Below are positions 31,273 to 61,617 of a stretch of DNA of 64,000 nt, in pieces (position 1 is the stretch's first letter; each line of letters begins with the position of its first letter). The translations under genes were made by a program, and so were the position numbers. The stretch comes from Gloeomargaritales cyanobacterium VI4D9 (GTDB taxonomy: Bacteria > Cyanobacteriota > Cyanobacteriia > Gloeomargaritales > Gloeomargaritaceae): contig OV696605.1 of the NCBI GenBank assembly GCA_927797885.1, positions 124,001-188,000 on the forward strand. The letters run 5' to 3'. The notes under the pieces were generated by a model, which was given only the letters and a program-made list of their open reading frames with translations, did no database searches and was not told where the DNA came from.

Positions 31273-31292
31273 AAAATTTGTTCTATTATTTC

Positions 31293-39557: not shown

Positions 39558-39801
39558 TTATCCTCCCTGGCTTCCTTCGTGTCTTTTACTCATGTTTGTG
39601 ATCCATCCATGTTCGACCAACACATCCACAGCCAATCCTCTCTGTAACTAGGGTAGCTTAGGATTCGTAGATGATGACTGGTTAAACGTAACTAAGATCG
39701 TCGTGTAACTTCCGCATCACACCAGAGAAACCCATCGGCAATGATGGAGGGAACCCAATCCATGAGCAAAATGTGGTAAATCTTGATTTCAACAGGAACG
39801 G

Positions 39802-41211
39802 TCATTCCTCCTCATCTATCTCTTCATCTTCCATGATGTCATCTACCTCGGTTAAATCCTCATCATCCATCAGCAGTTCTTCTTCTGCCACCTCTGGCAC
39901 CTCAATGCCTCGCACATCCAATTTGCCCGTAACCACATCGGAAACAAGGCGGGTGCGGTATTCCTGAATCAGTTCTATTTCCCGTTCAGTACGGGCGATC
40001 GCTTTGTCAATGAGGGCAGTTTCTTTTTTGATAAATTCGACTATCTTATCTTGTTCTTGAAGTGCAGGAACAACTAAAAGTAACTGCGAATACTTATCAG
40101 CGCCGATATTTTCTATCGTTGCTTTACTAAAAATCGATATTTTCCATCTATCAAAAACTAGTGACTGTGTATATAGGTACAAAAAATCGCTGGTTATAAC
40201 ATTCTGATTTGGTTTTGCTTTTATCAAATATCCCGCAAAGCAGGAAGGCTCGTCCAGTTTCTTACACTGAAATACCTTGCCAACAGTTGCACCGCTTCTA
40301 GCAAATAGCAAGTCACCTTCTTCAAGAAGATACTCCTCGAATCTATCAATATCTAGTGAAAGTTTGTTTTTATCATCTAAATATCCGTCGGAATTAAAAT
40401 CTGTGATTCTAATATAGCGTGGATATTCTGAAGAGTAATCAGTTCCAGAAGCATTTGCTCCATACTTTAGTTTTCCACAGATGCAATGCTTCAGTTTCCT
40501 CACCGCCCAATGCGCTGGTATCTGCCCAAGCCATTCCACGCCGCTGTCTTTCATTTCCACATTGGGGTTAATGCCTTTGGTTACCGCTTGGTTGATGATG
40601 TTCTGCTTCTGTTCCTTTAGCAGTTGGATGAGCCGCCGTTTATTGCGGATGAATTTATTGATCTGGGCGGTTTTCCAGTCAAGGTAACGGACAATATGAT
40701 TTTGCTCTTCTACTGGAGGGAACAAGGCATATATCGCACCGAAAGAAGGAGTGTATAAACGGTTGAAACCATCACCAACACCTCTTGAGGCATTCGCAAA
40801 TAAATCAACCCAAGTTCGAGTTTTAAAGAGCAAAGAATAATAACTGACAGAAGTTGAGTTTTTGTCTATTACATCAAAAACACTGTAGTCAGGCGAAACA
40901 ACTCCCTCTAAACGAACATCGGTAAACATTCCACTCCAAGCCTGCATTCTATTCATTAGGAGATTACCTAAACGACATACTTTATACTTAGATAAATCCG
41001 AAGAACTTGGAGGGCGGTTATTTAGAGAAGAGTATAAAATTAAGCCTTTCTTGCGACTAAATGATAACAATTTTAGATTAGATGTTTGACTTCTTTCTTC
41101 TCGCTCTCTAAAAAGAAATTTTATCTTACGCAATTCCCAATGTTCTGGCACTTCCCCCAACCAAGGCACGCCAGAATCCTTGTATTTTGGGTAAGGTTTC
41201 AGCTTCATCAC
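39802..41211 (-). CDS. hsdS: Type I restriction specificity subunit S
   Basis: 469 residues with the two target-recognition domains and spacer helices of HsdS. The repeat landmarks are PKYKDSGVPWLGEVPEHWELRKIK at the start and MKDSGVEWLGQIPAHWAVRKLKHC near residue 220. Each is followed by a conserved helix region (EEQNHIVRYLDWKTAQINKFI and ALQEQDKIVEFIKKETALIDKAI). The acidic tail (EEELLMDDEDLTEVDDIMED) is unusual. Its start overlaps the hsdM stop. The downstream 245-bp gap before mntA is the only break in the operon and may hold an internal promoter. Confidence 0.93.
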   Translation of the reverse strand: MMKLKPYPKYKDSGVPWLGEVPEHWELRKIKFLFREREERSQTSNLKLLSFSRKKGLILYSSLNNRPPSSSDLSKYKVCRLGNLLMNRMQAWSGMFTDVRLEGVVSPDYSVFDVIDKNSTSVSYYSLLFKTRTWVDLFANASRGVGDGFNRLYTPSFGAIYALFPPVEEQNHIVRYLDWKTAQINKFIRNKRRLIQLLKEQKQNIINQAVTKGINPNVEMKDSGVEWLGQIPAHWAVRKLKHCICGKLKYGANASGTDYSSEYPRYIRITDFNSDGYLDDKNKLSLDIDRFEEYLLEEGDLLFARSGATVGKVFQCKKLDEPSCFAGYLIKAKPNQNVITSDFLYLYTQSLVFDRWKISIFSKATIENIGADKYSQLLLVVPALQEQDKIVEFIKKETALIDKAIARTEREIELIQEYRTRLVSDVVTGKLDVRGIEVPEVAEEELLMDDEDLTEVDDIMEDEEIDEEE

Positions 41212-43340
41212 TCAGCCTCCCCCACAATTTCTTCTAACAAACCTTCCGTTTCCCGTTCCAAAGCGTAGATGTCTGCCTTAATCTCTTCCAGTGTTCGCAT
41301 GGGCGTAGGTTTGTAAAAATGCTTAGTAAACGAAATCTCATAGCCAATTTGCGTCTTTTCCCGGTCGATCCAGGCATCCGGGGTGTAGGGCAAAACCTCC
41401 CGCTGAAAGAACGCCTCGATGCCCCCCGGTTCCAACAACGGAATCTGCTCGCTATCCCGTAGTGCCGTATCTGGCTCGTACTCGACCACATGGGGTTTCC
41501 CATCAATCTCCATTGCAAACAGCCCGTAAAGGGGGTTGGGCATGACCTTACCCGGCTTGTAAACCTTACTCACTACGGGTGCCGCATCCTCACTGGTGTC
41601 ACAGAGTTCACTTTGGAGTAACTTTTTGCGCTTGGCAGTGAGCTTAATGCTGTGTCTGCCTGCCAACCAGTCACAGGTTTTCATAAAAACGTTGAAGTCC
41701 CGCTGAGGTGCGGCTCCCATCGCTTCCAACAGGATTTTGACCAAGCTGACCAACGGCTCCTCTCCGGCTTGCTTGCAGGTTTTTTGAAAGCGTTCCAACC
41801 GGGTCGGGCTGAGGTCAACCGCCAACCGCAACGGGCGTTCCACCGTCACCTTCCAATACCCGAAAGCCTCATTGGGAAAAATCTTAGATTTCTCGGTTTC
41901 TACTGGATTCACCACCAGGTCACAGATGCGGGCGATCAATTCCTCTGAAAACTCGCAGTTTTTTTTGCCCAGGTTACGGCGCAGTGGTACATACCATTCA
42001 CTGGCATCAATCAATTGCACCTTGCCCCGACGCTCTGGGGATTTTCGATTGGACAATAACCAAATATAAGTGGCAATACCAGTGTTGTAAAACATATTCT
42101 CCGGCAGGGCAATGATCGCCTCCAGCCAGTCATTTTCGATGATCCAGCGGCGGATATTACTCTCTCCCTGTCCCGCATCACCAGTGAACAAAGAAGAACC
42201 ATTGTGAACTTCTGCAATCCGGCTACCCAGGGCGGTGTTGTGCTTCATTTTGGAGAGCTTATTCACCAAGAACATCAACTGTCCATCATTGGAGCGAGTG
42301 ATCATTTTGTATTCCCCGTCGCCGCCATGCTGGGTGACAAAGCGTGGGTCTTTGATGTCCCCCTTACCACCCAATCGGTCTAAGTCAGTTTTCCAGCTTT
42401 TGCCGTAGGGTGGATTCGAGAGCATAAAGTCAAACTCCATACTGGGGAAGGCATCGGCGGACAGGGTAGAGCCAAATTTGATGTTGTCTGCTTCGCTCCC
42501 TTCACCCTTGAGCAACAGGTCAGCCTTGGCAATGGCGTAGGTTTCTGCCTGTGACTCCTGCCCATAAAGATGGATGGTGACTTCCTTGCCGTGTGCGGTC
42601 GCCAAATTTTTCAAGCGCTCCTCTGCCACAGTCAGCATCCCCCCGGTGCCGCAAGCCCCGTCATAGACAAGGTAGGTTCCCGACGTGATCTGGTGGGTCA
42701 CGGGCAAAAAAATCAAATCCGCCATCAGCCTCACCACATCCCTTGGCGTGAAGTGCTCCCCCGCCTCCTCGTTATTATCTTCATTGAAGCGGCGGATCAA
42801 TTCCTCAAAAATCGTACCCATAGCGTGGTTGTCCAGGGCTGGCAGAACCTCAGTTCCAAAAGCATCCACCACGGGTTTGTGGCTGAGGTTGTAGCGATTG
42901 TCAAGAAACTTCTCAATGAGGTGTCCGAGAATATCTGCCTCAACTAAGGTGGGAATTTGATAGCGGAATTTGAATTTATCCAGAATTTCTTGAACATTGG
43001 GAGAGAACCCATCGAGGTACAACTCGAAATCAGATTTAAGCTGTTGTTGTTTGGCACGGTTCCTCAGGTCACGAAGCGTGAACGGTGAGATATTGTAAAA
43101 AGCTTCCCCAGCCGCATGACACAGAGCCGCGTGTTGGTTGGCGATTTTAGCCTCATCGAGTTGCTTCTTCATGCTGAGGACAGCTTCTTTGGTCGGTTCC
43201 AACAGGGCATCCAGGCGGCGGATCACCGTCATCGGTAGGATCACATCTCGGTACTTGCCACGCACATACACATCCCGGAGGACATCATCTGCAATGCCCC
43301 ATATAAAATTCACGATGCCGTTATAAAACGAGTGGTTCAT
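41208..43340 (-). CDS. hsdM: Type I restriction methyltransferase subunit M
   Basis: 710 residues, longer than the usual 500. The N6-adenine methyltransferase core has YDGACGTGGMLTVAEERL (SAM site) and FDFMLSNPPYGKSW (catalytic NPPY). It is preceded by the HsdM N-terminal domain and EEAGEHFTPRDVVRLM. The extra C-terminal 200 residues (DWLAGRHSIKLTAKRKKLLQ onward) are a domain seen in long HsdM proteins. It is first in the operon; the 245 bp upstream probably hold its promoter. Confidence 0.94.
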   Translation of the reverse strand: MNHSFYNGIVNFIWGIADDVLRDVYVRGKYRDVILPMTVIRRLDALLEPTKEAVLSMKKQLDEAKIANQHAALCHAAGEAFYNISPFTLRDLRNRAKQQQLKSDFELYLDGFSPNVQEILDKFKFRYQIPTLVEADILGHLIEKFLDNRYNLSHKPVVDAFGTEVLPALDNHAMGTIFEELIRRFNEDNNEEAGEHFTPRDVVRLMADLIFLPVTHQITSGTYLVYDGACGTGGMLTVAEERLKNLATAHGKEVTIHLYGQESQAETYAIAKADLLLKGEGSEADNIKFGSTLSADAFPSMEFDFMLSNPPYGKSWKTDLDRLGGKGDIKDPRFVTQHGGDGEYKMITRSNDGQLMFLVNKLSKMKHNTALGSRIAEVHNGSSLFTGDAGQGESNIRRWIIENDWLEAIIALPENMFYNTGIATYIWLLSNRKSPERRGKVQLIDASEWYVPLRRNLGKKNCEFSEELIARICDLVVNPVETEKSKIFPNEAFGYWKVTVERPLRLAVDLSPTRLERFQKTCKQAGEEPLVSLVKILLEAMGAAPQRDFNVFMKTCDWLAGRHSIKLTAKRKKLLQSELCDTSEDAAPVVSKVYKPGKVMPNPLYGLFAMEIDGKPHVVEYEPDTALRDSEQIPLLEPGGIEAFFQREVLPYTPDAWIDREKTQIGYEISFTKHFYKPTPMRTLEEIKADIYALERETEGLLEEIVGEAE

Positions 43341-43584
43341 AACCGACGGAAACTCCTAGATCAAATCCATTTTGAATGATCAAGCCAGCAGGGTATACCT
43401 CGCACAGGCGGAAACCTTCTGGGGGTCAATGGCTGAAACATAACATAACAGAAGAACGATTTCTACAATGGACTCAACCGGCTACGCTGGGGGTTAAGTT
43501 CGTTAAATTACTATTAACTTCCCTGGTCTCGCTCAGGTCTGGGTAGGATAATACCTCTTAAGTGTAAATTCCGTCCTTGAGTAT

Positions 43585-44028
43585 ATGTGCAAACGCTTCC
43601 AACTCCATCCTGTCCTCGTTGTTTCAATGATTTTTATCTGTTCATATTTTGGGTTCCATCCGGCACTTGGACTTCCCGATATTTCTGATACTGACGGAAT
43701 TGATATGGATGGTATAAAGTTATTATCTTCAAGATGCAGGGAAAATGTTTTAAAAGTACACTATGAAATCAAGACTAATCTTAGAGAAACATTCAAGAAG
43801 AATCCAAGATTCTTTGGAGATGGTTCAAATTATGATTTTGTAACGAAAGCAGATTTAAGCATCGGTCGGGATTATAAAGGGAATTTTAGTGTACACTTCT
43901 ACAACGCACAGGCTCAATTTGGTTCAGGTTATGAAGATGGAGAAAAGCAAGATAAAAACATCATCTATATTTCTAATCGCTTGGCACCCACAAGTGTTGA
44001 ATCCTGCAATAAAACTTTACATATTTAG
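43585..44028 (+). pseudogene. Secreted protein truncated by IS4-like element
   Basis: A signal peptide (VLVVSMIFICSYFGFHPALG) is followed by about 110 residues, FDGDGS-type sequence with KADLSIGRDYKGNFSVHFYNAQAQFGSG. The last residues after NRLAPT are encoded by the IS end (AGTGTTGAATCC), so the original C-terminus is lost. No family recognised. The loss of the end makes a working product doubtful. Confidence 0.5.
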
Positions 44029-45092
44029 GCGTGGGACGACCCGATTGAGCCAATGGACAAAATTCCACTCCTGCCGTATTAAGATTTGTATATATCGGAA
44101 CTTATCTGCCAATTTACTTCCGTACATCCGTGGAACTTTTAACAGTTGCAATATCAAGTAAACTATTAAAATTACATAAATTTGAATGGTAATTCCATTC
44201 AAATTTTTACTCATCATTTTATCGAGCTTTAAGTTCATCTTTAGAAATTTCCATAGTACCTCTATCGCCCAGCGTTGTCTATAGGCTTCCCCTATCTCTT
44301 CATTACTCATTACATCCTCAGGAATATTGGTAGCTAAATAATAGTCTACTTTCTGTTGAACATTGCCAAAACAAACTACTCTCGCCTTACCTCGTTCTGT
44401 GGTGATATGATAGTTTTCATCCCATTTCCAATTCGACTTAATACGGATAATAAAAAGGGCATCATTTTCGATAAATTGTTCAAATACTTTGTGACTGCAA
44501 AACCCTCTATCCCCGACTGCGACTCCATTTTCCGGTAGCATTTTCACAATATCTTCACCAAAATTAATCTCATGTGCCTGTCCAGGACTAACAATTAAAT
44601 GACCAGTAGATTTCGTATCTTGATTCAAAGTGGTTATTAACTTTACTTGGCGATAGCCTTGGAGCCAAAATAACTTACTCATCAGCGGTATTACGGTAGC
44701 ATCAAAAGGACATAAAACCAACCTCTTTTCAGGATGAGCTTCCTCAATATAATGCAATAATTTATGATAAAGATGCATAAAAATTTGTGGGTCTCTTGTC
44801 TTGTTCGCCTTAGAAAACGTGGATAAGTCAACCTTAATGCCCGCATGATTTAATTGGTAAAATAAGTCCCGTAAACTGTTGATTCCTTTGTCTAAAATGC
44901 CAGCAAACCAGATTGAACAAAATAAGCGAGAATTTAGAACTGGATAATCATTAGTTGGCAGGTCTTTGAGTAAAAATTTGACAATCCCGGGAAAAGAATT
45001 GAATTTCATAGTTGTTTCATGTTTTGGTTTATATGAATTAGAATACCATATTTTGACCCCTCTTTTTCTGCCTTTACCTACCTTTCAACACT
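43993..45092 (-). mobile_element. IS4-family-like insertion sequence
   Basis: About 1.1 kb. Short inverted ends AGTGTTGAATCC (43993) and GGTTTCAACACT-like (CTTTCAACACT ending 45092) flank one transposase gene. I could not find a clear target duplication. It sits between two convergent genes and has replaced the 3' end of both. Confidence 0.55.
44017..45009 (-). CDS. IS4-family transposase
   Basis: 330 residues with the DDE fold of the IS4 class: LVLCPFDATVIPL (first Asp), GVAVGDRGFCSHKVF (second Asp), and the Y-x2-R-W-x-IE-x6-K motif YRQRWAIEVLWKFLKMNLKL (Glu and Lys). The gene is intact, so this IS could still be active. Confidence 0.85.
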   Translation of the reverse strand: MKFNSFPGIVKFLLKDLPTNDYPVLNSRLFCSIWFAGILDKGINSLRDLFYQLNHAGIKVDLSTFSKANKTRDPQIFMHLYHKLLHYIEEAHPEKRLVLCPFDATVIPLMSKLFWLQGYRQVKLITTLNQDTKSTGHLIVSPGQAHEINFGEDIVKMLPENGVAVGDRGFCSHKVFEQFIENDALFIIRIKSNWKWDENYHITTERGKARVVCFGNVQQKVDYYLATNIPEDVMSNEEIGEAYRQRWAIEVLWKFLKMNLKLDKMMSKNLNGITIQIYVILIVYLILQLLKVPRMYGSKLADKFRYIQILIRQEWNFVHWLNRVVPRLNM

Positions 45093-46016
45093 TCTGCGTT
45101 TTCCCATATAATTAATGCAATATTCCAAAACAATACTAGCTAATTCATAATTTTTTATAGATACCAAAGCCTCCATACCATATTCGTAGCCGTAATGGTC
45201 ACAATAATCATTATATATTGGGTCATCATTATCGTACTCACGTACGTGATAAGATGCTCTTAAAAATTCTGTGTTTATTTCAAGAATCATTGCGTACTGT
45301 TTTAAGATTGCAAACCCTTTATTTCTAGCTCTAAAATAGTCTGTCATTCGAGATGAATTACTAATAATAAATAAACGATTGTCCTCTGACATTGATGCTA
45401 GATAATCAGAATTCACTTCAGCTAATTGGACAATTTCAGAAATTTCATCGTGCCGATTATTCAAACTAAATATATCTATGACAAATTCTATTACGGGCAT
45501 ACTTATTACAGCGTCTAAGCCATTTTTCCTGACATATTGATTGAAATAACTTTGGCATATATGTAAAGCATTTTTAATTCCATAGTTATATTTAGAAGCT
45601 AAGTTTGAATGAATGATACATAGCCACTCATCAGCTAATTGCGTCATGTACTGGTCATTTGATTTGCTTGATTTGTCCTTCAAGCCATGAAGAAACCTTG
45701 ATACATCTAGCCAAGCCTTTAAGTTTTTTTCATTTGCTGGCTTAGATATACTTATTTCTTCAAGTGCTATGTCTTCTAAAATTGCACCTGTAGCGAAGGC
45801 AAGCAGATTTTGACGATCACTTTCCATTAGGTGTGTTTCAATAATTTCTATAACCCTATGTTTTTCATTTGCCTGACTTGGTAACGCATAGATACAACCA
45901 AATGCGATACTTACAGTTAAGAGAAATTTGATCCCTTTTGAGAATATATTACCTGCCATAACCAACTGCGATGTAGGTATAAAAGCCAGTAACTTGGTAG
46001 TCCCAATATTGAGCAT
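45078..46016 (-). CDS. Secreted helical-repeat protein, C-terminus altered by IS
   Basis: 312 residues. A signal peptide lies near residues 28-50 (IKFLLTVSIAFGCIYALPSQAN). The rest is a mostly helical protein with pairs of charged helices (LMESDRQNLLAFATGAILEDIALEEI, LKAWLDVSRFLHGLKDKSSKS). This resembles the repeat-rich N-terminal half of the CHAT protein at 48394 (same signal-peptide plus helix layout). The last residues RRSVER come from the IS4 end, so a few native residues may be lost. Unknown function. Confidence 0.5.
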   Translation of the reverse strand: MLNIGTTKLLAFIPTSQLVMAGNIFSKGIKFLLTVSIAFGCIYALPSQANEKHRVIEIIETHLMESDRQNLLAFATGAILEDIALEEISISKPANEKNLKAWLDVSRFLHGLKDKSSKSNDQYMTQLADEWLCIIHSNLASKYNYGIKNALHICQSYFNQYVRKNGLDAVISMPVIEFVIDIFSLNNRHDEISEIVQLAEVNSDYLASMSEDNRLFIISNSSRMTDYFRARNKGFAILKQYAMILEINTEFLRASYHVREYDNDDPIYNDYCDHYGYEYGMEALVSIKNYELASIVLEYCINYMGKRRSVER

Positions 46017-46185
46017 ACAGTCCCCTAAAACTTACCTCACGTCACCTTTAGGATGTCTTTATACGATTGTTGCGCTTTCGTCACGCTTGTTAAATAAAGC
46101 CTAAACTTCTCTCTCTGCCCTGTAAGCCAATGATATAAAGTTAATTGGTGAAAACATCGGAATTTCATCATAAGGAGTTGGCACA

Positions 46186-46779
46186 ATGAACAGAAAGTTG
46201 ATTTTCCCGCTTGCTATCTCCTTGTGTAGCTTAATCTCATCCTGCACATTTCTATCCGTTGCCACTGAGAAGAAAAAGGCTGATGTGGTCTTTGAGTGTG
46301 GGTCTGACCAGATGAACGGAGAAGTCGTGCCCGCCACCATTGCTACCACGCAAAACAAATCCGTGGTCATTATCCGGTGGAACCCCAGAAACTTTTACTT
46401 TGGCAAGGACTGGTCGCCTTTGAAACGTTGCCAGGAGGTTGCCGCCCGTTTTCAAAAACTTCACGACCGGGATGACCTGCGCTTCATAACGGCGGATCAA
46501 GCGAGTTGGTTACCAGATCAGCGGGTGAACGTAGTCTGTGGTGTTACCCAGGAAGGTGCCCGTTGTACTGAAGCAGACCTCCTATTCACTTTGGAATCCA
46601 AGGATGACCCCAACGAGGTATTGTCAGAACTCATTGCCCTGCGGGAGCGACCGAGAGAGAATCAACCCCTGACCCGTGGCTCGAATTTTGATGGCGGTCG
46701 GCGTGTCTATTACGATTTATCCAAGGAGTTAGAGATTCTTAGTAGTTCGTCCTCTGGACAAGATAAGAAAGCCTTTTAG
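46186..46779 (+). CDS. COP23-domain lipoprotein
   Basis: 197 residues with lipobox LISSC (MNRKLIFPLAISLCSLISSC), then a COP23 (circadian oscillating protein) domain: VVFECGSDQMNGEVVPATIATTQNKSVVIIRW, SPLKRCQEVAARFQKLHD, and VNVVCGVTQEGARCTEADLLFTL with four Cys likely forming disulfides. The gene precedes the kinase by 4 bp and is translated in the same direction, so the pair forms an operon. COP23 function is unknown; it is often found beside CHAT and kinase genes in cyanobacteria (recalled, not checked). Confidence 0.8.
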   Translation: MNRKLIFPLAISLCSLISSCTFLSVATEKKKADVVFECGSDQMNGEVVPATIATTQNKSVVIIRWNPRNFYFGKDWSPLKRCQEVAARFQKLHDRDDLRFITADQASWLPDQRVNVVCGVTQEGARCTEADLLFTLESKDDPNEVLSELIALRERPRENQPLTRGSNFDGGRRVYYDLSKELEILSSSSSGQDKKAF

Positions 46780-46783
46780 TGTC

Positions 46784-47812
46784 GTGATGATGTTGGGTAA
46801 AACACTCCGCAATCGCTACAAAATTATTAGACAGCTAGGGTCGGGGGGATTTGGCGAAACTTATCTAGCAGAGGATTTGGGGATTCCTGTTCCCGTTAAA
46901 CCTCATCGAGTGGTCAAATATTTGAAACCATACATTCAAGATGCCAGAACTATTCAGTTGTTTAAGAGGGAAGCGGAGGCACTCTACAAACTAGGGAAAA
47001 GCCATCCACAAATTCCCGATTTGCTGGAATACTTTGAAGAGGGTGGAAACTTCTTTGTTATTCAAGATTATATTGATGGTCGAGATTTGAGCTACGAAAT
47101 TATTGACGCTAATCCTTGGACAGAGGAAAAAGTTATTCATTTGCTCCGAGATATTCTGGAAATTTTAGCTTATGTTCACAGCAATCATATCATTCATCGA
47201 GATATAAAACCGAGCAATATTATCCGTCATTATCAGACGAAAAAACTTTTCTTAATAGATTTTGGTGCAGTGAAAGAGGTTACTACCATACACGCAGTTA
47301 AACAGAGTGCAACCGTAGTTGGTACCTTGGGATATATGCCAGAAGAACAGCAGGCAGGGCAACCAGTCTATGCTAGTGATATTTATGCCGTTGGTATGAT
47401 TGGCGTTCAAGCTTTAACGGGGATTAACCCAAATGCTTTGCCCTTCAATGCTGCTACGGGGGAAAAAGACTGGTATCAATTCGCTCAGATTTCTACTGAT
47501 TTTTTAGAAGTTCTCAAGAAAATGACTTATCGTGATTATACCCGGCGTTATCAAAATGCTCAAGAAGCTCTGGAAGCAATAAATAGTCTCGAAATCTTCA
47601 GTGCAACCGATACACAACCACAAGCTCTACCGACGGTTATGCTTCCTTTATTATCAAGAACCAAGATTGCCATTCGCTCAGATTATCCCAAAATACGCTT
47701 TTTTTGGATGTTAGTAATTGCCTCAGTAATAATCACTTTTATTGTAGCGAGTCCATTTTTATATCGCCGTGATGAACCCACGCCACGACCCAACTCAGAG
47801 CGAGCTTTTTAG
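46784..47812 (+). CDS. Serine/threonine protein kinase with C-terminal membrane anchor
   Basis: 342 residues. The kinase landmarks are GSGGFGETYLAED (P-loop), VVKYLKP (the Lys in VVKY), IIHRDIKPSNII (catalytic loop), FLIDFGAVKE (DFG) and MPEEQQAG (where APE is changed). A single helix near residue 310 (IRFFWMLVIASVIITFIVASPFLY) anchors it, with a short tail outside. It is typical of cyanobacterial SpkB/SpkC-like short kinases. It directly follows the COP23 gene and precedes the CHAT gene by about 580 bp. Confidence 0.9.
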   Translation: MMMLGKTLRNRYKIIRQLGSGGFGETYLAEDLGIPVPVKPHRVVKYLKPYIQDARTIQLFKREAEALYKLGKSHPQIPDLLEYFEEGGNFFVIQDYIDGRDLSYEIIDANPWTEEKVIHLLRDILEILAYVHSNHIIHRDIKPSNIIRHYQTKKLFLIDFGAVKEVTTIHAVKQSATVVGTLGYMPEEQQAGQPVYASDIYAVGMIGVQALTGINPNALPFNAATGEKDWYQFAQISTDFLEVLKKMTYRDYTRRYQNAQEALEAINSLEIFSATDTQPQALPTVMLPLLSRTKIAIRSDYPKIRFFWMLVIASVIITFIVASPFLYRRDEPTPRPNSERAF

Positions 47813-48153
47813 AATGGCGAACACTAAATAGATCACCCTAGTAAAGACCTGTTACTCAATCTCTAGAAGCATCCTAAAGGTAACCCAATTTTCCCAATTT
47901 TTTCAATGTTTTCACTACTGAAGATTTAGTTTGAGCCATTGATAGCTGCGGGTCAGTTCGCAAGCCCGTTAGAGAATTTAGCCACAGAGTCAGGACTAAG
48001 CCAACATGAACGAGAGATTTCATGCGATATTTCGTGAAAAAAGCGACACAGCCTAGCAGGAATCAAATACAACCCATCTGGGCTAGTGTGGCACGTATTC
48101 GATCTAAGCATAGGATAATTGGATGCATGTTGCCCTTGCAAGAATTAGGCTTA

Positions 48154-48278
48154 TGGGTGCCTCTATTTATTGATTTTTGTACTTATACAGCAGGCTCGGA
48201 AGCCCCATTCTCTCGTTGGCAATTGTCAATAAAGTAGGGGTTCAGTCTCAATAGCCATGAATGAATAGAGGTGCCCTA
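48154..48278. repeat. MITE-B copy inside CAST
   Basis: TGGGTGCCTCTATTTATTGA to ATGAATAGAGGTGCCCTA, a full-length copy of about 125 bp. It lies in the gap 47813-48393 between the kinase and CHAT genes. The rest of that gap has no supported gene. Confidence 0.75.
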
Positions 48279-48393
48279 TAGTGCATTTCATTTGTAATTA
48301 ATCATAGTGAATTGGTATTTGGACGGTTGACAGACAAGATAACACTTGCTATAATTGGGCTTCCTATACTGTCTAAGTTAGTTCTATTCAGGC

Positions 48394-50931
48394 ATGGACT
48401 TCTTTCCATTCTGCAAATGGGTCATTGGGATTAACTCCATCAAGTGGTTTCTCATCCAATGTGTAAGCTTGGTCAGTATTTTTACACCACTCCCTGTGAA
48501 TGCACAAGCAATCAGTAATCCTCTAGAAAAAGCTTCTGAATATATTCACAGAGATATGGACAATCATCGATTAGAAGGTGATACGAAGGCTCGTCTTGAG
48601 GAAGGTAAATTCCACCTGTTTGCTTTGGAGAACCTTCCAAACCGGGACTGGCTGGTTACTGAAGATATTTGTAAACTTAGGTTCTACCTAGCTGCCGCTT
48701 ATGAATTTGATGTCCTAAACACTAGGAAAATTTGTAGAGATTACTACGAATCGGCTATGAACTACTTCGATACGCTCTTGGTTGGCAATCTAGAAGAATT
48801 TGATATTGTCACAGCATATGCCAATGAAAGCAAGGTTGCTGACTGGGAGCGACGTATTAGATGGATTGAGAGAATGGTCAAAGAACTAGCATCCACTGGT
48901 GACCCTATGCACAAACAACAAGCCCGTTTTGTTCTCTGTCGCATAAGAGCTTATCTCTCTATAAAATACGAGTACGAGAGAGATAAAGCCACTCAAATAT
49001 GTAAAGAATTCTTTGACGAACTAGATTATAGTTCCTTGATGGATAGTGATTTACTTGGGTTAACTTTTCCCCTAGGAACCCAGAGCCATGGTGAAAGACC
49101 AAAAATCCTTCGTAAGCTTGAATATAATAGACATTATAATAGACATTCTACAGATGAAGAAACAATTAAGTTTCTTCTGATTTCCAACTATTTTGAACTT
49201 AAAAATTTCGACAAAATACTCCAAATATTTTCTCAATCTCCCGCAGAAGATATTGAGTACTCCTACCTTGGTTATGCCCAACTTGCCACAGGTGACCTCA
49301 ATACTGCAAAACAGTCATTTGAATATGCGGTAAACATATTAAAACGACGTATTTTAGTGCATGAGCCTGCAATTTCCAGGAACTCTACAGTGTTCGTTGG
49401 TCTCGATTTTAGTGGACACGATATGAGTTCTGGAGAATTTACGGGTCTTGCCATGATTCAGCTCCGGCAGAATCGGTTTGCGGAGGCATTAGAGTATGTT
49501 GAGCAGTCACGAGCAATGGGGTTAAGATATATTCTGGGGTCAAAAAATTTTGAATCTCTGAAATTTAATGAAATGCAATCGGTTGCTAAGAGCCAGAACG
49601 TCACTTTTGTGGTGTACTCGAGTATGCCCAATCTGGGGACTGATCCGGAACACCAAAGTGACTTGGGAATCTACGTACTCCAACCCGATGGTGATCTCCA
49701 CTTTGAGTTAGTTCCCCTCAATCAACTTTCTACCGTTGTTGCTTCCGTTTCACAGAGCCTTGCTCGGGGTGGTTTTCGTCAGCCTGTAACCATTTTAGTT
49801 CTCACCCTCTCTGGGGGAGTAGCTTTACTCCTGTTGTTAAGTGCAATCGTTCTGTTTCTGTATTTTAAAAAACCAATTATTGCTACCAGTGTAGTACTAC
49901 TCAGTTTCCTGAGCAGTTTACCCTTAGTTGCATTGACCTCAGGTCATGTAGCAAGTGAGCAGCCATCCACATTGGCTGTTGCCCAGAGGGTGAGTTTTAA
50001 GCAATTAATCAATACTGCCTTCGTTTTTGCTCGTTCCGGTACCAGGAGTTCGTTACCGGGAGGTTTGCGCACCGATCCAGCCTGTACCAGCCAAGATAGT
50101 TGCTTAGCAAGTTTGTATGAAATACTTATCAAGCCGATTGAGCAATATTTACCTCAAGATAGCAACGCTCAAGTTGTGTTTTTGCCCGAGGGTGAACTGT
50201 ATAAAGTACCTTTTTATGCACTCAAAGATCGCAATGGCAAGCAAGTGATCGACAAACACACTATCAGTGTTACTCCATCGATTCAGATTTTTAAAAAGTT
50301 GGTCGAGAAGCCAGCTGCAAAAACGAAGGGTGCTTTGGTTGTGGGTAACCCTACGATGCCAACAATGAGTTTGAATACCGAAGTACAAGATGATGTCCCA
50401 GAACTTAGTCCATTGCCAGGTTCGGAACGAGAGGCAAAAAAAATCGGTCAAATCTTTGGGACTAGTGCATTAATTGGGAGTCAAGCCACAAAGAGAAATG
50501 TAGTTTCGCGGATGAAATCTGCAAATATCATTCATCTTGCCACACATGGATTACCTCATGACTGGGGAGTAATTGTGTTAGCACCGGAGTCTGGTGACTC
50601 TGGACTGCTTGATGCTACCTCAATTAGTGGGTTAGAACTAGACAGTGACCTGATTGTTCTGAGTGCCTGCGATACGGGTACCGGAATTTTGTCCGGTGAG
50701 GGTGCAATTGGACTAGCACGACCATTCATTATTGCCGGTGCTCGTACTGTGATTGCCTCCCTTTGGCCGATACCTGATGAATCAACATCGGAAATGATGG
50801 TAGATTTCTACAAAAATTTGCAGTCTTCTCCAAATAAAGCCCAGGCTTTACGTAAAGCCATGCTCAAAACTCGGGAAAAATACCCCGACTCTCAATTTTG
50901 GGCAGGATTTAATTTAGTTGGCAAACCCTAA
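48394..50931 (+). CDS. CHAT-domain protease with helical repeats
   Basis: 845 residues. A signal-like hydrophobic start (KWFLIQCVSLVSIFTPLPVNAQ) precedes about 380 residues of TPR-like helices (YLGYAQLATGDLNTAKQSFEYAVNIL, EALEYVEQSRAMGLRYIL). A membrane segment follows at about 465-515 (VTILVLTLSGGVALLLLLSAIVLFLYF and TSVVLLSFLSSLPLVAL), and then a CHAT caspase-like domain. Its dyad is complete: His718 in IIHLATHG and Cys759 in VLSACDTGTG. CHAT proteases act in bacterial defence and signalling. As the last gene after COP23 and a kinase, it may be a kinase-controlled effector (inference). Confidence 0.88.
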   Translation: MDFFPFCKWVIGINSIKWFLIQCVSLVSIFTPLPVNAQAISNPLEKASEYIHRDMDNHRLEGDTKARLEEGKFHLFALENLPNRDWLVTEDICKLRFYLAAAYEFDVLNTRKICRDYYESAMNYFDTLLVGNLEEFDIVTAYANESKVADWERRIRWIERMVKELASTGDPMHKQQARFVLCRIRAYLSIKYEYERDKATQICKEFFDELDYSSLMDSDLLGLTFPLGTQSHGERPKILRKLEYNRHYNRHSTDEETIKFLLISNYFELKNFDKILQIFSQSPAEDIEYSYLGYAQLATGDLNTAKQSFEYAVNILKRRILVHEPAISRNSTVFVGLDFSGHDMSSGEFTGLAMIQLRQNRFAEALEYVEQSRAMGLRYILGSKNFESLKFNEMQSVAKSQNVTFVVYSSMPNLGTDPEHQSDLGIYVLQPDGDLHFELVPLNQLSTVVASVSQSLARGGFRQPVTILVLTLSGGVALLLLLSAIVLFLYFKKPIIATSVVLLSFLSSLPLVALTSGHVASEQPSTLAVAQRVSFKQLINTAFVFARSGTRSSLPGGLRTDPACTSQDSCLASLYEILIKPIEQYLPQDSNAQVVFLPEGELYKVPFYALKDRNGKQVIDKHTISVTPSIQIFKKLVEKPAAKTKGALVVGNPTMPTMSLNTEVQDDVPELSPLPGSEREAKKIGQIFGTSALIGSQATKRNVVSRMKSANIIHLATHGLPHDWGVIVLAPESGDSGLLDATSISGLELDSDLIVLSACDTGTGILSGEGAIGLARPFIIAGARTVIASLWPIPDESTSEMMVDFYKNLQSSPNKAQALRKAMLKTREKYPDSQFWAGFNLVGKP

Positions 50932-51454: not shown

Positions 51455-52285
51455 CTAGGTTTTATCTGGGCTTTCCCGCAGTCTCTCCCAAAGTTCGTCA
51501 GGCGTAGGAAAATTATCCCTCTCTCTTGTGATGTGATTACTAAAATCGTATTCAACAATGCCAATGCCGTTAGTTGAATAAGCAAACTGTAGCTCTAACA
51601 TCTCGGCACAATTTTTCGCTTGCTTCAGCCCGTCACCCGCATCCATATAAACAGATTTCGCTTCCACCACAGCAATCGCCCCATGATGACCATAGTTCAG
51701 AATATAATCAGCTTTTGCTCTATTCTTGCGCCCTGACCGAGTGGATGAACTTTTATTTTTAGCCACAATTTCCCCATGAACAGTAATGGAATGTGGACTT
51801 TTATCCCAACCTGCCTCTATCAGTTTTGCCATGACCAGTTCCTCAACCGATTGCGGATGTTCAATCGTTGTTTGAATTTGTCGTTGTAAATCATCTATCG
51901 GTATGACCGTCATACTAAAAACCCCTTGCTTCACCAGAGCCGCTACTTTCTGAGGGTCAAATTCCTCCACAACGAGCTTTTGTTGGGCATCCTCCCACCG
52001 CAACAGAAACCGCCGGGCTTGCTCCGGCTGGGCATACCCCCCATCCAGCTTTTGCAACACTGCCAACGACATCGCTATCGCCGCCAAGTCATACCCCCGC
52101 TGTAACAGGTAATGCACGATGGACAGGTTCACCAAGTTTTCCCGGTCGTAATACGCACTGTACCCCGTACCCGTCGGATTCACCACCGGCACGACTAACC
52201 CCTTACTCCGCCAGTATTGCAGTTGCCGGATGGTACAGCCCGTGATGCGCGCCGCCTCCTTGGTACTGAAAAACATCGTGCCCAA
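51455..52285 (-). CDS. CvkR-like MerR regulator fused to HsdR-N-type domain
   Basis: 276 residues. The N-terminal MerR-type helix-turn-helix is STKEAARITGCTIRQLQYWRSKGL and the wing GYSAYYDRENLVNLSIVHYLL. The C-terminal part (about 146-262) resembles the N-terminal nuclease domain of type I restriction R subunits: KLIEAGWD, KADYILNY (Asp193), IAVVEAKS (Glu208, Lys210), GLKQAKNCAEML and YSTNGIGIVEYDF. It is divergent from cas12k, the place of the known repressor CvkR, which controls cas12k and crRNA expression. The added PD-(D/E)xK-like domain is unusual; whether it cuts DNA is unknown. Confidence 0.85.
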   Translation of the reverse strand: MGTMFFSTKEAARITGCTIRQLQYWRSKGLVVPVVNPTGTGYSAYYDRENLVNLSIVHYLLQRGYDLAAIAMSLAVLQKLDGGYAQPEQARRFLLRWEDAQQKLVVEEFDPQKVAALVKQGVFSMTVIPIDDLQRQIQTTIEHPQSVEELVMAKLIEAGWDKSPHSITVHGEIVAKNKSSSTRSGRKNRAKADYILNYGHHGAIAVVEAKSVYMDAGDGLKQAKNCAEMLELQFAYSTNGIGIVEYDFSNHITRERDNFPTPDELWERLRESPDKT

Positions 52286-52383: not shown

Positions 52384-54189
52384 ATGAGCCAGTTAACGAT
52401 TCAGTGCCGTTTGGTTGCTTCAGAGGAAACCCGCCGCTGGGTGTGGGAGATGATGGCGGGTCGGTATGCGCCGCTGATTGCCACCACCTTGGAACAAGTT
52501 TCCCAACACAAGGATTTTCCGCAATGGGTAGCTACCGGGGAACTGCCTACCCAGGTGGTCAAAAATTTAGTGAACCAAGCGAAAAGCGGTCTGCCTGCTC
52601 GCTGGTGTGCCTCCGCCCAACGACAGGTGCAGGAAACCTACAAGGCTTGGTTGAAAAGACGGCGGAAACTGCAGCAAAAGTTACAGGGTCAGCAAACCTG
52701 GTTGAGTGTCCTCAGACCGGATGCAGAATTGGCTCAAGATGCGGGTTTATCCCTAGAGGAGATGAAAATTCGGGCACAAGCACTTCTCCATAGGGAGATC
52801 AATAATTGGTTTCAGGCGTACCTACAATGTCAGGATGTCGTTGAGCGGTCTATCTTTGCCTACTTGCTGAAACACCGCTTGACTGTGCCCACGGAGCCGG
52901 AAGATACGGACAAACTCAGGCGGAAACGGCGGCAAGTTGAAATCAAAATTGAGCGGCTGGAAACCCAGCTTGCGGGTCGCAGTCCCCAAGGGCGGGATTT
53001 GACCGGCAGTCGGTATGCAACCGCATTAAACGAAGGGGAGCAGTGCTATTGGGAAAATGACGCTGATTTTCTAGCATGGCAAACGGAAATTTTGTCTCGT
53101 CCTGATTCCCTGCCGCCTCCGGTGGAATATGCCACCAACACGGATATGACCTGGCACAAGGATGAACAGGGGCGTTTGGCGGTCACCTTCAACGGACTGG
53201 GCAAGCTGAAATTCAAAATTGCCTGCGACCAACGGCAACTGCATTGGTTTCAGCGGTTTTACCAAGACCAAGAGCAGTTCAAATCGCAAAAAGGGGCACG
53301 CAGTCAGGCGTTGTTTACGTTGCGCTCTTGTGAGTTGTTGTGGAAGCCGGGGAACCGCTCAGGAGAGCCTTGGCAGGCTAATTTTTTGTACCTTCACTGC
53401 ACAGTTGATTCCCGCCTTTGGACACAGGAAGGAACAGCTATAGTTCAACAAGAAAAAGCAAAGAAATCGCAAGCCATCGTCAAGAAATTATCAGAGCGGA
53501 GTGATTTAACCGCCCAACAACAAAAGTGTTTGGAGCGTCATCAGTCCACCTTAGCTCGGTTGCACATGGGGTATGACCGCCCCCAGCGGCGAATGTATCA
53601 GGGCAAGAGTCACCTTGCTGTGGGCATCAGTCTGGACATGGAGAACCTGGTTACTGTGGCACTGGTGGATGTCGTGAAACAAAAAGTGATTACAGGTTGC
53701 ACAATTAAAAGCCTGCTCGGTCAAGATTATGCCTTGGTTCAGCGTCTCAGATATGAAAAAAGGCAAAATTCCCACCTGCGAAAAGTCGCCCAGGAACGAG
53801 GCAGTAAAATCGTTAATTATGAAGGGAGTTTAGCCATTCATGTCGAGCGTTTGCTTGTGAAGGCGATTATCCATTTTGCCCAGCAACATCTGGCGGGGAG
53901 CCTATGTGTGCCGACCCTAAAAGATATACGGGAAACCATCCAATCTCATCTCCAATGCCGGGCAGAGGAGCGTCATCCCAATAGCAAAGAACTCCAACAC
54001 AGATACGCCAAAGAATATCGTATCAATGCCCATCGTTGGAGTTATAATAGGTTATTGAAATTACTTAATCAGCAAGCCAAGATTGCTGGTTTAGTAGTAG
54101 AGCAGGGGGTGCAAAGTGCGGGTGAAACTGCTTTAGAAAGAGCGTTAGGGGTCGCCTTAAGTGCTTATTATCAACGCAGTGCCGCTTGA
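52384..54189 (+). CDS. cas12k: Cas12k, nuclease-dead effector of V-K CAST
   Basis: 601 residues, on the short side for Cas12k (about 630-650). Homology runs throughout: MSQLTIQCRLVASEETRRWVW, NDKQ-type helices, DMTWHKDEQGRLAVTFNGLGKLKFKI, and RuvC-like strands VGISLDMENLVTVALVD, GSKIVNYEGSLA and TALERALGVALSAYY. The catalytic acids expected in an active RuvC (GID, IVxED, ADxNGA) are absent here: GIS and CVPTLKD. This fits a guide-only effector. It is the only cas gene, followed by tracrRNA and the array, as in V-K. No frame lesion. Confidence 0.95.
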   Translation: MSQLTIQCRLVASEETRRWVWEMMAGRYAPLIATTLEQVSQHKDFPQWVATGELPTQVVKNLVNQAKSGLPARWCASAQRQVQETYKAWLKRRRKLQQKLQGQQTWLSVLRPDAELAQDAGLSLEEMKIRAQALLHREINNWFQAYLQCQDVVERSIFAYLLKHRLTVPTEPEDTDKLRRKRRQVEIKIERLETQLAGRSPQGRDLTGSRYATALNEGEQCYWENDADFLAWQTEILSRPDSLPPPVEYATNTDMTWHKDEQGRLAVTFNGLGKLKFKIACDQRQLHWFQRFYQDQEQFKSQKGARSQALFTLRSCELLWKPGNRSGEPWQANFLYLHCTVDSRLWTQEGTAIVQQEKAKKSQAIVKKLSERSDLTAQQQKCLERHQSTLARLHMGYDRPQRRMYQGKSHLAVGISLDMENLVTVALVDVVKQKVITGCTIKSLLGQDYALVQRLRYEKRQNSHLRKVAQERGSKIVNYEGSLAIHVERLLVKAIIHFAQQHLAGSLCVPTLKDIRETIQSHLQCRAEERHPNSKELQHRYAKEYRINAHRWSYNRLLKLLNQQAKIAGLVVEQGVQSAGETALERALGVALSAYYQRSAA

Positions 54190-54716: not shown

Positions 54717-55709
54717 GTTGCATCCGCCTTCCAGCAACTAGGGCGGGTGAAAGGGCGAACCTGACCTTTGCAAACTTGAACGGGGCAGGTTGCATCCGCC
54801 TTCCAGCAACTAGGGCGGGTGAAAGATTAAGTCGGGATCGGGGGTTGCCTTAGCGAGCATGGTTGCATCCGCCTTCCAGCAACTAGGGCGGGTGAAAGAT
54901 TAAGTCGGGATCGGGGGTTGCCTTAGCGAGCATGGTTGCATCCGCCTTCCAGCAACTAGGGCGGGTGAAAGACCTCACACAAACCTTGAAAGTCACGATT
55001 CCAAAGGGTTGCATCCGCCTTCCAGCAACTAGGGCGGGTGAAAGCCTCTGGCATCACCGTAGCCGCCAACCCCTACGTCTAGGAGTTGCATCCGCCTTCC
55101 AGCAACTAGGGCGGGTGAAAGGGAAACCAAGGTGCTAAGGCATTGTTTAACATTGTGTTGCATCCGCCTTCCAGCAACTAGGGCGGGTGAAAGTCCACGA
55201 CGCCATGTGCCAGCACGACCGATCACAGTTGCATCCGCCTTCCAGCAACTAGGGCGGGTGAAAGCCTCTGGCATCACCGTAGCCGCCAACCCCTACGTCT
55301 AGGAGTTGCATCCGCCTTCCAGCAACTAGGGCGGGTGAAAGGGGGATTTTCCCTTCATCTCCCGGCTGGGTCTCAAACGTTGCATCCGCCTTCCAGCAAC
55401 TAGGGCGGGTGAAAGCCTAATGTCATTCTTTGATCCCATTTTGCGATTACGTTGCATCCGCCTTCCAGCAACTAGGGCGGGTGAAAGATATGCTTCCCAT
55501 CTCTCTGACCTACTCGGTGCCTGTTGGTTGCATCCGCCTTCCAGCAACTAGGGCGGGTGAAAGTTTACAACTGGAGTCGGAACATCTGGGAACCCCAGGA
55601 GTTGCATCCGCCTTCCAGTAACTAGGGCGGGTGAAAGTTTCTATTATGAATCTGTTATGAATCGAATATGAAGTTGCATCCGCTTTTCAGCAACTAGAGC
55701 AGGAGAGGC
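54717..55709 (+). CRISPR. Type V-K CRISPR array, 13 spacers
   Basis: Thirteen 37-nt repeats start GTTGCATCCGCCTTCCAGCA and end CTAGGGCGGGTGAAAG. They are at 54717, 54789, 54862, 54935, 55008, 55085, 55157, 55228, 55305, 55379, 55451, 55527 and 55601. A fourteenth degenerate repeat lies at 55673-55709. Spacers are 34-40 nt. Repeats 1-12 are identical; repeat 13 has one C to T change at 55619. Spacers 2 and 3 are identical, as are 5 and 8. The GAAAG end points the crRNA to the plus strand, as for the tracrRNA. No acquisition genes are present, which is normal for V-K. Confidence 0.97.
55638..55672 (+). other. Homing spacer (spacer 13)
   Basis: The first 17 nt, TTTCTATTATGAATCTG, match the minus strand at 55936-55920 exactly, next to GGTA. 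The next bases (TTATG) differ from the target, after which AATCG matches again if a 5-nt gap is allowed. It is preceded by repeat 13 (one substitution) and followed by the decayed repeat 14. This is the guide that most likely directed the present insertion. Confidence 0.88.
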
Positions 55710-55761
55710 AACATGCTATCTTTTAGGATTGCGTGGCGTAGTAATGCCATGACCAATTCCG

Positions 55762-55794
55762 GTATGTCTGCCTTCCCACAACTAAGTCAGGAAT
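55762..55794 (+). repeat. Delocalised, decayed CRISPR repeat
   Basis: GTATGTCTGCCTTCCCACAA then CTAAGTCAGGAATG follows the CRISPR repeat order (CTGCCTTCC, CAACTA, GGGCGGG-like) with about a third of bases changed. It lies about 50 bp beyond the array. The following TTTCTTGTTGATGAGGACA could be the guide of an older delocalised crRNA. Confidence 0.5.
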
Positions 55795-55824
55795 GTTTCT
55801 TGTTGATGAGGACAAAGGGGGTGT

Positions 55825-55872
55825 ATGACGACATTAATTTGGCACTGGCGACAAATAATTTGGCACTGTACA
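55825..55872. promoter_or_regulatory. CAST end, array-proximal, with TnsB-site-like repeats
   Basis: Read on the minus strand from 55872: TGTACAGTGCCAAATTATTTGTCG, then CCAGTGCCAAATTAATGTCG. These two repeats match the motif of the other end base for base in most positions, and the terminal TGTACA is perfect. Confidence 0.88.
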
Positions 55873-55882
55873 ATTTCAGTTA
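55873..55882. repeat. CAST flanking direct repeat, right copy
   Basis: ATTTCAGTTA, identical to 31978-31987 and touching the TGTACA end. See the left copy for comment on its length. Confidence 0.75.
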
Positions 55883-55919
55883 CCTTCATTAAAGTGCGTG
55901 GGCAAAGGGTCTGCCGATT

Positions 55920-55940
55920 CAGATTCATAATAGAAATACC
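55920..55940 (-). other. CAST target: protospacer with GGTA PAM
   Basis: On the minus strand GGTA (PAM, 55940-55937) is followed by TTTCTATTATGAATCTG (55936-55920), identical to the first 17 nt of spacer 13. There are 64 bp (55873-55936) between the transposon end and the PAM, within the 60-66 bp known for V-K insertions. It lies 23-43 bp upstream of the CheW-like start and remains intact next to the inserted element. Confidence 0.9.
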
Positions 55941-55962: not shown

Positions 55963-56394
55963 ATGAAAGTTCTCCATTTTCCGTTGGGGTCACTCCAGGT
56001 GGGACTGCCCTTGACCCAGGTGCAAAAGGTGATGCCGTATCCCACCGTGTTCAGCAGTGGGCAGAAACCGGTTGGTTTGGCGCATTTTGAAGAACAGGAA
56101 GTGGTGGTGATCGACCTTCACCACTATTTATTTGGTCAAGTAAACCCGATTCCAGCTACTCATTTGATTGTGGTCAAAGGCAACACTGAATTTTACGGTG
56201 TCCCCTGCACGGGTATGCCCGCACTGGTCGATATTCTCCCGGAGCAGATACGCCAAATTCCTACCACCTATCGCCAGGGGGATACCCTCGGACTCGCCAG
56301 CCATGTCGCCCGGTTAAACAATGATACAATGACCTTATTTTTGCTGGACAGTCAACGGTTTGGTGGCATCATTGCCCCATCCTCTGGGTTATGA
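55963..56394 (+). CDS. CheW-like protein
   Basis: The ATG at 55963 gives 143 residues of a single CheW domain (LHFPLGSLQVGLPLTQVQKVMPYPTVF, GLAHFEEQEVVVIDLHHYLFGQ, THLIVVKGNTEFYGVPCTGMPALVDI). CheW domains couple receptors to CheA-type kinases in phototaxis or pilus motility; no che partner is nearby. The ORF extends upstream to 55825 only through CAST-end sequence. The CAST insertion cut its leader 90 bp upstream, so its native promoter was probably displaced. thrS follows 8 bp downstream. Confidence 0.85.
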   Translation: MKVLHFPLGSLQVGLPLTQVQKVMPYPTVFSSGQKPVGLAHFEEQEVVVIDLHHYLFGQVNPIPATHLIVVKGNTEFYGVPCTGMPALVDILPEQIRQIPTTYRQGDTLGLASHVARLNNDTMTLFLLDSQRFGGIIAPSSGL

Positions 56395-56401: not shown

Positions 56402-58180
56402 ATGATGTCTATCACGCCCCCCCCGGTGCATTTACCCCGCACCAGTGAATCCGAAAAGCTAAAGCGCATCCGGCACACCGCTTCCCATGTGATGGCGATG
56501 GCGGTACAAAAACTATTTCCCCGGGCGAAAGTCACCTTGGGTCCGTGGATAGAAGACGGGTTTTACTATGACTTTGACCACCCGGAACCCTTTACGGAAG
56601 CGGATTTGAAAGCCATCAAAAAAGAGATGGTAAAAATTATCAAGAAAAAACTGCCGGTCATTCGGGAAGAGGTGACGAGAGAGGAAGCGTTGCGGCGGAT
56701 TCAAGCCCTGAATGAACCCTACAAATTAGAAATTCTAGCGGGGATTCAAGAGCCAATTACCCTCTATCATTTGGGGGATCAGTGGTGGGATTTGTGTGCA
56801 GGTCCCCATCTGGACAATGTGGGGGAACTCAACCCCGATGCCATTGAATTGGAAAGTGTGGCGGGAGCGTACTGGCGGGGGGATGAACGCAATCCCATGT
56901 TACAGCGGATTTATGGTACCGCCTGGGAAACCCCGGAGCAGCTGCAAGCCTATCTGCACCAAAAACGGGAAGCCCTGCGGCGGGATCATCGGCGGTTGGG
57001 GCAGGAATTGGATTTATTTAGCATCCAAGAGCAAGCCGGAGGCGGGCTGGTGTTTTGGCATCCCAAGGGTGCCCGGATGCGTTTGTTAATTGAAAACTAT
57101 TGGCGGGAAGCCCATTTACGCTCTGGTTATGAACTTTTGTACACCCCTCATTTAGCCCATTTAGACCTGTGGAAAACTTCGGGGCATTTTGATTTTTACC
57201 GGGAGAGTATGTTTGAGGCGATTGCGGTGGAATCCCAGGAATATCAACTCAAACCGATGAATTGTCCGTTCCATGTTTTGACCTATCAAAATCACCTGCA
57301 TTCCTATCGGGAATTACCGATTCGTTATGCGGAATTGGGCACGGTTTATCGTTACGAACGCTCCGGGACTTTGCACGGTTTGATGCGGGTGCGGGGGTTT
57401 ACCCAGGATGATGCACATATTTTTTGTCTGCCGGAACAGGTGGCAGAGGAAATTTTGGGTGTCTTGAATCTCACGGAACAAATTCTGTCGGATTTTGGGT
57501 TTCGAGATTATGAAGTGAATCTATCCACCCGTCCTGATAAATACGTGGGGGATGACCAGGTGTGGGAATTGGCAACCCATGCGTTGAAAGATGCCCTCCA
57601 AACCAAGGATTGGGCATACAAGGAAGATATAGGCGGTGGGGCATTTTATGGTCCCAAAATTGATATAAAAATTCGGGATGCGATTGGACGTCTATGGCAA
57701 TGTTCGACGATTCAGGTGGATTTTAACTTACCCCATCGGTTCGGTTTGGAATATGTAGCCGCCGATGGTTCTCGTCAGGTACCGATTATGATTCACCGGG
57801 CGGTCTTTGGCTCCCTAGAGCGGTTTTTTGGGATTTTAATTGAGAACTATGCGGGGGATTTTCCTCTGTGGTTGGCACCCGTGCAACTGCGCTTTTTACC
57901 CGTCGGGGAACAGTATGTTAATTATGCCCAGGAAATTGCTCAAAATTGGCAGAAAATGGGTCTGCGGGTAGAGGTGGATACTTCCGGGGAACGCTTGGGT
58001 AGGCTGATCCGCAATGGGGAGACGGCGAAAATTCCGGTGATGGCGATTGTGGGTGCTAAAGAAACGGAAACTCAAACCCTCAGTGTACGGACTCGGCAGA
58101 AGGGGGATTTGGGGGCATTATCTGTGCGAGAAGTTCAAGAACGGTTACAGCAAGCGGTGAACCAGCGGCAGGATTTTTAG
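56402..58180 (+). CDS. thrS: Threonine-tRNA ligase
   Basis: 592 residues, lacking the N-terminal TGS domain, as in several cyanobacteria. The editing domain has RHTASHVMAMAVQKLFP and DLCAGPHLDNVGEL, with metal or catalytic His/Cys in HxxxH and CxxxH. The class II core has MNCPFHVLTYQNH, YRYERSGTLHGLMRVRGFTQDDAHIFC, and IQVDFNLPHRFGLEYVAADG, PIMIHRAVFGSLERFFGILIE. The C-terminal anticodon-binding domain ends EVQERLQQAVNQR. It follows the CheW-like gene by 8 bp and may share its promoter, so the CAST insertion could affect an essential gene. Confidence 0.95.
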   Translation: MMSITPPPVHLPRTSESEKLKRIRHTASHVMAMAVQKLFPRAKVTLGPWIEDGFYYDFDHPEPFTEADLKAIKKEMVKIIKKKLPVIREEVTREEALRRIQALNEPYKLEILAGIQEPITLYHLGDQWWDLCAGPHLDNVGELNPDAIELESVAGAYWRGDERNPMLQRIYGTAWETPEQLQAYLHQKREALRRDHRRLGQELDLFSIQEQAGGGLVFWHPKGARMRLLIENYWREAHLRSGYELLYTPHLAHLDLWKTSGHFDFYRESMFEAIAVESQEYQLKPMNCPFHVLTYQNHLHSYRELPIRYAELGTVYRYERSGTLHGLMRVRGFTQDDAHIFCLPEQVAEEILGVLNLTEQILSDFGFRDYEVNLSTRPDKYVGDDQVWELATHALKDALQTKDWAYKEDIGGGAFYGPKIDIKIRDAIGRLWQCSTIQVDFNLPHRFGLEYVAADGSRQVPIMIHRAVFGSLERFFGILIENYAGDFPLWLAPVQLRFLPVGEQYVNYAQEIAQNWQKMGLRVEVDTSGERLGRLIRNGETAKIPVMAIVGAKETETQTLSVRTRQKGDLGALSVREVQERLQQAVNQRQDF

Positions 58181-61398: not shown

Positions 61399-61617
61399 AG
61401 AAGAAAATTCATTTAAGTTTGCGACATTCGCCTGTAGCTGGAACCCCTTTCATATAAAGACATATAGCAATCCTAAATGAGAATGGAACAGGGGGTCGCA
61501 GGGGCACCGCCCCCGTCCTTGGTTCTGGGAAATTCTTGTTTGTAAATCAAGTAGGATTGCTATAGAGAGATTACAAATACCTAAAAATGTCGCATTCTAG
61601 ATCAAAACGACTATAAA
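61399..61617. repeat. MITE-D copy with MITE-A nested inside
   Basis: The outer element starts CATTTAAGTTTGCGACATTC and ends ATGTCGCATTCTAGATCAAA-ACGACTATA. The inner MITE-A (61464-61564) runs TATAGCAATCCTAAATGAGA to AAGTAGGATTGCTATA and is inserted at a TA of the MITE-D middle. The remaining gap 61618-61966 holds no gene I can support. Confidence 0.7.

Follow-up and report, generated by a model that had tools for sequence, protein, structure and literature searches.

This locus raises the question of what brought a type V-K CAST to the leader of a cheW-like gene. All coordinates are those of the window, the whole 64-kb stretch of DNA that was analysed, which covers positions 124,001-188,000 of the single-contig 3.16-Mb VI4D9 genome. 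We placed the element (CAST1) at 31988-55872 on the plus strand. TGTACA was read at each end, with the right-hand copy at 55867-55872, and inner TnsB-type sites GTGCCAAATTA / TAATTTGGCAC are present at each end. The element is enclosed by a 10-bp direct repeat, ATTTCAGTTA, read from the sequence at 31978-31987 (left copy) and 55873-55882 (right copy), both on the plus strand. At this length it is not the usual 5-bp target-site duplication of Tn7-like transposition. For a single insertion, where a 5-bp duplication is expected, the 10-bp repeat is anomalous, a point that the sequence-only reading had overlooked, along with the break in tnsB, the second CAST of the VI4D9 genome and the CAST of the sister species at this leader.

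On its left, CAST1 carries tnsB, tnsC and a short tniQ. Cargo comes next, and behind it lie a MerR regulator and cas12k, which are divergently oriented, and an array of 13 spacers. The order TnsB, TnsC, short TniQ is of the V-K type, with tnsB interrupted. Specifically, a three-frame reading recovered an N-terminal tnsB fragment at 32314-32554 (plus strand), whose frame is broken by an insert directly behind it. The main part is a 495-aa open frame at 32723-34210 (plus strand), corresponding to ShTnsB residues 82-556 (E 3e-228) and carrying rve and Mu-transpos_C domains. It is followed on the plus strand by tnsC at 34204-35049 (ShTnsC, E 2e-114; TniB) and by the 168-aa tniQ at 35046-35552 (Pfam TniQ), which is of the short V-K type. 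On the other side of the cargo, a CvkR-like MerR regulator lies at 51455-52285 on the minus strand (Pfam MerR_1), in the position described in PMC9938897, and the 601-aa cas12k lies at 52384-54189 on the plus strand (PDB Cas12k chains, E about 2e-146). In our reading of the open reading frames, no tnsA-like ORF was noticed next to tnsB. The space between cas12k and the array is about 530 nt, and Rfam gave no RNA family match near the array.

The insert in tnsB is a 184-bp dispersed repeat (32555-32738, plus strand) with an 80-bp end that resembles attC by eye. It has 18 matches across the VI4D9 genome, with concentrations of copies around 9-21 kb and 941-947 kb, and an integron-integrase-like fragment is found at 953 kb of the same genome (E 4.6e-59, below the family cut-off). 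The insert resembles an integron cassette that integrated elsewhere than in a cassette array. Because tnsB is interrupted, CAST1 is probably immobile now, and its present activity is unlikely.

Other repeats and genes were observed along the window. Judged from translations, the cargo (35970-50931) encodes type I restriction-modification-like subunits, a HEPN/MNT pair, a protein kinase and a large CHAT-like protein. It also contains an IS-like transposase gene (43989-45096) that is 99.8-100% identical to two further copies in the VI4D9 genome, and which was therefore probably recently active. A dispersed repeat of about 100 bp has copies at 4889-4990, 10541-10640, 24261-24365, 30858-30956, 31292-31413 and 61462-61564, and is found in the sister species too.

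The CRISPR array occupies 54717-55709 on the plus strand and consists of 13 repeats of 37 nt, ending in GAAAG as in V-K CASTs, plus a degenerate terminal repeat (55673-55709). Array units are duplicated at 54789-54934 and 55008-55343, where spacer 2 equals spacer 3 and spacer 5 equals spacer 8. The last spacer, spacer 13, is 35 nt long (55638-55672, plus strand), and its first 17 nt (55638-55654) form the homing guide. These 17 nt match the minus strand at 55936-55920 exactly (17/17), the target is directly preceded by a GTA PAM (55937-55939, minus strand), and 64 nt separate this PAM from the array-side end of CAST1. The sequence-only reading had reported this match, and had cited the V-K assignment, GTN PAM, 17-nt guide and spacing; both the measured values and their agreement with PMC9938897 and with our own survey bear it out. 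The last 18 nt of spacer 13 do not match the present flank of CAST1. For the other spacers, no GTN-PAM-anchored match of at least 11 nt was detected in the 120 kb of the VI4D9 genome searched.

Could the match have arisen by chance? PAM-anchored matches to the array spacers reached at most 9 nt in a set of 20,000 first-order Markov flanks. Furthermore, the guide 17-mer occurs exactly twice in the VI4D9 genome (3,162,419 bp), once in the spacer and once in the target; many copies elsewhere would have spoken against homing, and none was found. The sequence-only reading had called coincidence very unlikely. With the genome-wide count and the random flanks in hand, we regard it as ruled out, its probability being practically nil.

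The target lies in front of a cheW-like gene (55963-56394, plus strand; Pfam CheW, E 1.4e-10), and thrS starts 7 nt past the end of this gene (56402-58180, plus strand). The cheW-thrS order is common to all seven congeners. A CATAAT motif at 55926-55931 (plus strand) is invariant in 7/7 congeners, 27-39 nt upstream of the cheW ATG, and is covered by the PAM-proximal part of the guide. This motif may be a -10 element of a promoter. A sigma-70 consensus scan of the cheW leader brought no full promoter to threshold, and the promoter reading therefore draws on the conservation of CATAAT only. Among the leaders aligned, the full 17 nt with the GTA PAM are found in VI4D9 and its sister species only. 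A tRNA gene as the target of CAST1 was rejected, since there is none in that part of the window.

We surveyed 80 V-K loci from public genomes for comparison, and accepted a guide-target pair where a repeat-like 3' end preceded a 13-21 nt match with a GTN PAM. Pairs were obtained in 49 of the 80 loci, mostly of 17 nt, and the distance from PAM to TGTACA was 43-66 nt where the end was seen. A tRNA gene is the target in 43 of these 49 other pairs, which upholds the earlier view that a non-tRNA target is unusual. The remaining six, with target genes named from their translations, comprise the 3' end of mutL in Nostoc (two loci with one guide; L112, L147), the 3' end of mutS in Anabaena subtropica (L096), the leader of a HIT-family gene in Chlorogloea (L094), an intergenic site in Nostoc carneum (L072), and a weak 13-nt match (L103) that may be spurious and was left out of the statistics. 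CAST1 is thus standard in its geometry, which recurs in the 49 other loci, and rare in its class of target.

The guide unit itself sets CAST1 apart. Its 37-nt repeat (55601-55637, plus strand) is 36/37 identical to the array repeat, and spacer 13 is in register as the terminal unit of the array behind a full-length repeat. The sequence-only reading had already recognised the guide as the last unit of the array, and this proved the most informative point. In the V-K systems described in PMC9938897 and PMC11406308, the anchor unit is usually separated from the array and preceded by a truncated repeat, R*; no such truncated, separated R* is present at the CAST1 guide. Because the source says "usually", the CAST1 guide is a variant and is not excluded from the class. 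In our survey, the repeat in front of tRNA-directed guides has kept little beyond its final 12 nt (12-25/37 identical to the best array repeat). With CAST1 excluded and duplicate guides collapsed to one, the four non-tRNA guides (25, 25, 26 and 30) all exceeded the 28 tRNA guides (12-24; Mann-Whitney p = 0.0007). Because the sample is small (four unique non-tRNA guides plus CAST1) and the pattern emerged post hoc, we put forward the link between repeat erosion and target class as a hypothesis.

To trace the history of the site, we turned to the sister species (G003), whose thrS is 98% identical. The sequence-only reading had suggested a search of related genomes for an empty site, and the left flank in G003 does align without interruption across the CAST1 junction at moderate identity, giving the expected contiguous junction. 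At the same cheW leader, G003 carries a decayed V-K CAST (L033) with a 5-bp TSD, ATGGC. Its cas12k is cut to 197 residues and joined there to a CRISPR repeat, a fusion that apparently arose by deletion. The ends of this element are of another sequence type than those of CAST1, one end is located 53 nt from the GTA PAM, against 60-66 nt, and no spacer matching the leader is kept. Since the two elements did not insert at the same base, the cheW leader seems to have been used twice. The insertion history in G003 is nevertheless uncertain owing to rearrangement, with a dispersed repeat and tandem repeats nearby.

Spacer 13 matches the leader of G003 more closely than the site it now targets: 26 of 27 alignment columns agree, and there is one 1-nt gap. 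For the tail of the spacer alone, the match has a p of about 0.001-0.003. The alignment includes a tandem repeat that is lacking in the leader of VI4D9 itself. Since spacer 13 is of normal length, the tandem repeat was probably already in its source DNA; the argument from the tail depends on this repeat, which could have arisen twice. As judged from these alignments, spacer 13 looks as if it had been taken whole from an older leader. A viral origin was considered and rejected, the first 27 nt of the spacer having no exact match in IMG/VR.

VI4D9 carries a second cas12k (96% identical) at 1,557,770 of the genome, within an element we call CAST2 (L067 and L068, G000:C1 1550045-1560526). Its end lies 64 nt from a GTA within a tRNA-Met gene, which is the common type of V-K target. 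None of its three spacers provides a matching tRNA-Met guide, and a search of the VI4D9 genome for the expected 17-mer, tolerating up to 2 mismatches, gave no site other than the tRNA gene. Thus, a surviving guide for this site was rejected, and the guide of CAST2 appears to be lost. Neither tnsC nor tniQ of CAST2 was found by tblastn. The element is a mosaic, with tnsB and the left end of the G003 type and cas12k and the right end of the CAST1 type, and it has no target duplication. On account of its mixed end and TnsB types and the missing duplication, CAST2 is probably a recombinant.

Taken together, we consider it very probable that CAST1 was inserted by RNA-guided homing through its terminal spacer, and that this guide is an ordinary array spacer recruited as an att guide. 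We infer the causal role of the spacer 13 guide in the insertion, and likewise the route by which the spacer was acquired. In the proposed sequence of events, a crRNA from the terminal repeat-spacer unit would be loaded onto Cas12k, and the first 17 nt of the guide would pair with the cheW leader beside the GTA PAM. TnsC, TniQ and TnsB would then insert CAST1 at a distance of 64 nt from the PAM, the array-side end facing the target, so that the insertion falls upstream of the leader motif and would leave cheW-thrS intact. The full-length array spacer, most likely derived from a cheW leader of the same lineage, would have become the att guide, and it would still be neither shortened nor detached from the array, unlike that of most V-K CASTs. 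Weighing against this account are the broken tnsB, the 10-bp length of the flanking repeat, and, in the sister species, the 53-nt distance from PAM to CAST end and the missing guide.

The order of events might also be the reverse, with spacer 13 acquired after insertion from the flanking DNA and the match being a consequence of the insertion and not its cause. In its favour, the host has cas1, and spacer 13 is a normal full-length array unit. But this account leaves the GTN PAM, the correct strand and the spacing of 64 nt without a reason, and the spacer tail has no match to the present flank. Moreover, spacer 13 occupies the array end distal to cas12k, normally the oldest position. We consider acquisition after insertion very improbable.

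Arrival by recombination is also to be weighed: CAST1 would have entered an older CAST at the leader without homing of its own, and the guide would have been maintained or acquired because the locus already had a CAST. Elements of the genus are mosaic, as CAST2 illustrates, and this leader is occupied by a CAST in the sister species too. The length of the 10-bp flanking repeat fits as well, since it would result from recombination between separate chromosome copies carrying insertions offset by 5 bp. Against this stand the ends of CAST1, which match on both sides, and its junction, which does not coincide with the base at which the sister's element is inserted. We therefore judge this origin to be improbable, and retain RNA-guided homing through spacer 13 as the explanation of the insertion.

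How the guide itself was obtained is a further matter. Its array-like form and the longer match to the G003 leader point to an ordinary spacer of chromosomal origin as the source from which the att site was recruited. Genes for cas1 are present in the genomes of VI4D9 and three congeners, so adaptation in trans is possible. A broader scheme, which we advance tentatively and to which we give somewhat less than an even chance, is that V-K CASTs gain att sites when adaptation in trans adds a chromosomal spacer and the terminal unit becomes the guide, later eroding to an R*-spacer. CAST1 would represent an early stage of this process, having landed at a conserved promoter-region motif. According to a review (PMC11406308), att sites of V-K CASTs change more often than those of type I-F3 CASTs, "for unknown reasons". 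CAST1 offers a concrete candidate route for such a change, based on a guide that is a normal array unit and has more extended homology to the leader of a relative, on a target adjoining a synthetase gene, and on a sister CAST at the same locus.

Both the mechanism and its components, a 17-nt anchor spacer and a GTN PAM, are already established (PMC9938897; PMC11406308). In PMC9938897, V-K homing is described with a 17-nt anchor spacer, a GTN PAM and 46-82 nt to the end, and PMC11406308 gives V-K att sites as mostly, but not only, tRNA genes. As far as could be checked, what is new is the cheW-thrS leader as an att site, the CAST at the same leader in the sister species, the un-eroded array unit as a guide, and the link between erosion of the guide repeat and target class.

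Compared with known systems, CAST1 is closest to the ShCAST/AcCAST/AnCAST type, with which it shares Cas12k, TnsB, TnsC, short TniQ, a MerR regulator (CvkR), TGTACA ends, a GTN PAM and a 17-nt match outside the array-side end at a spacing within 46-82 nt. It differs from that type in its target, the cheW-thrS leader and not a tRNA gene, and in its guide, an in-register unit whose repeat is complete and whose spacer is 35 nt long, in place of a separated, truncated R*-spacer. The surveyed mutL, mutS, HIT and intergenic loci resemble CAST1 in having a non-tRNA target, a 14-21 nt match, a GTN PAM and a repeat more array-like than that of tRNA-directed guides, whereas their target genes are others and their repeats are 24-30/37 identical, compared with 36/37 in CAST1. 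Type I-F3 CASTs, as portrayed in PMC11406308, likewise use a dedicated guide for a chromosomal att site, but their effector is Cascade, and the family as a whole typically uses four att sites.
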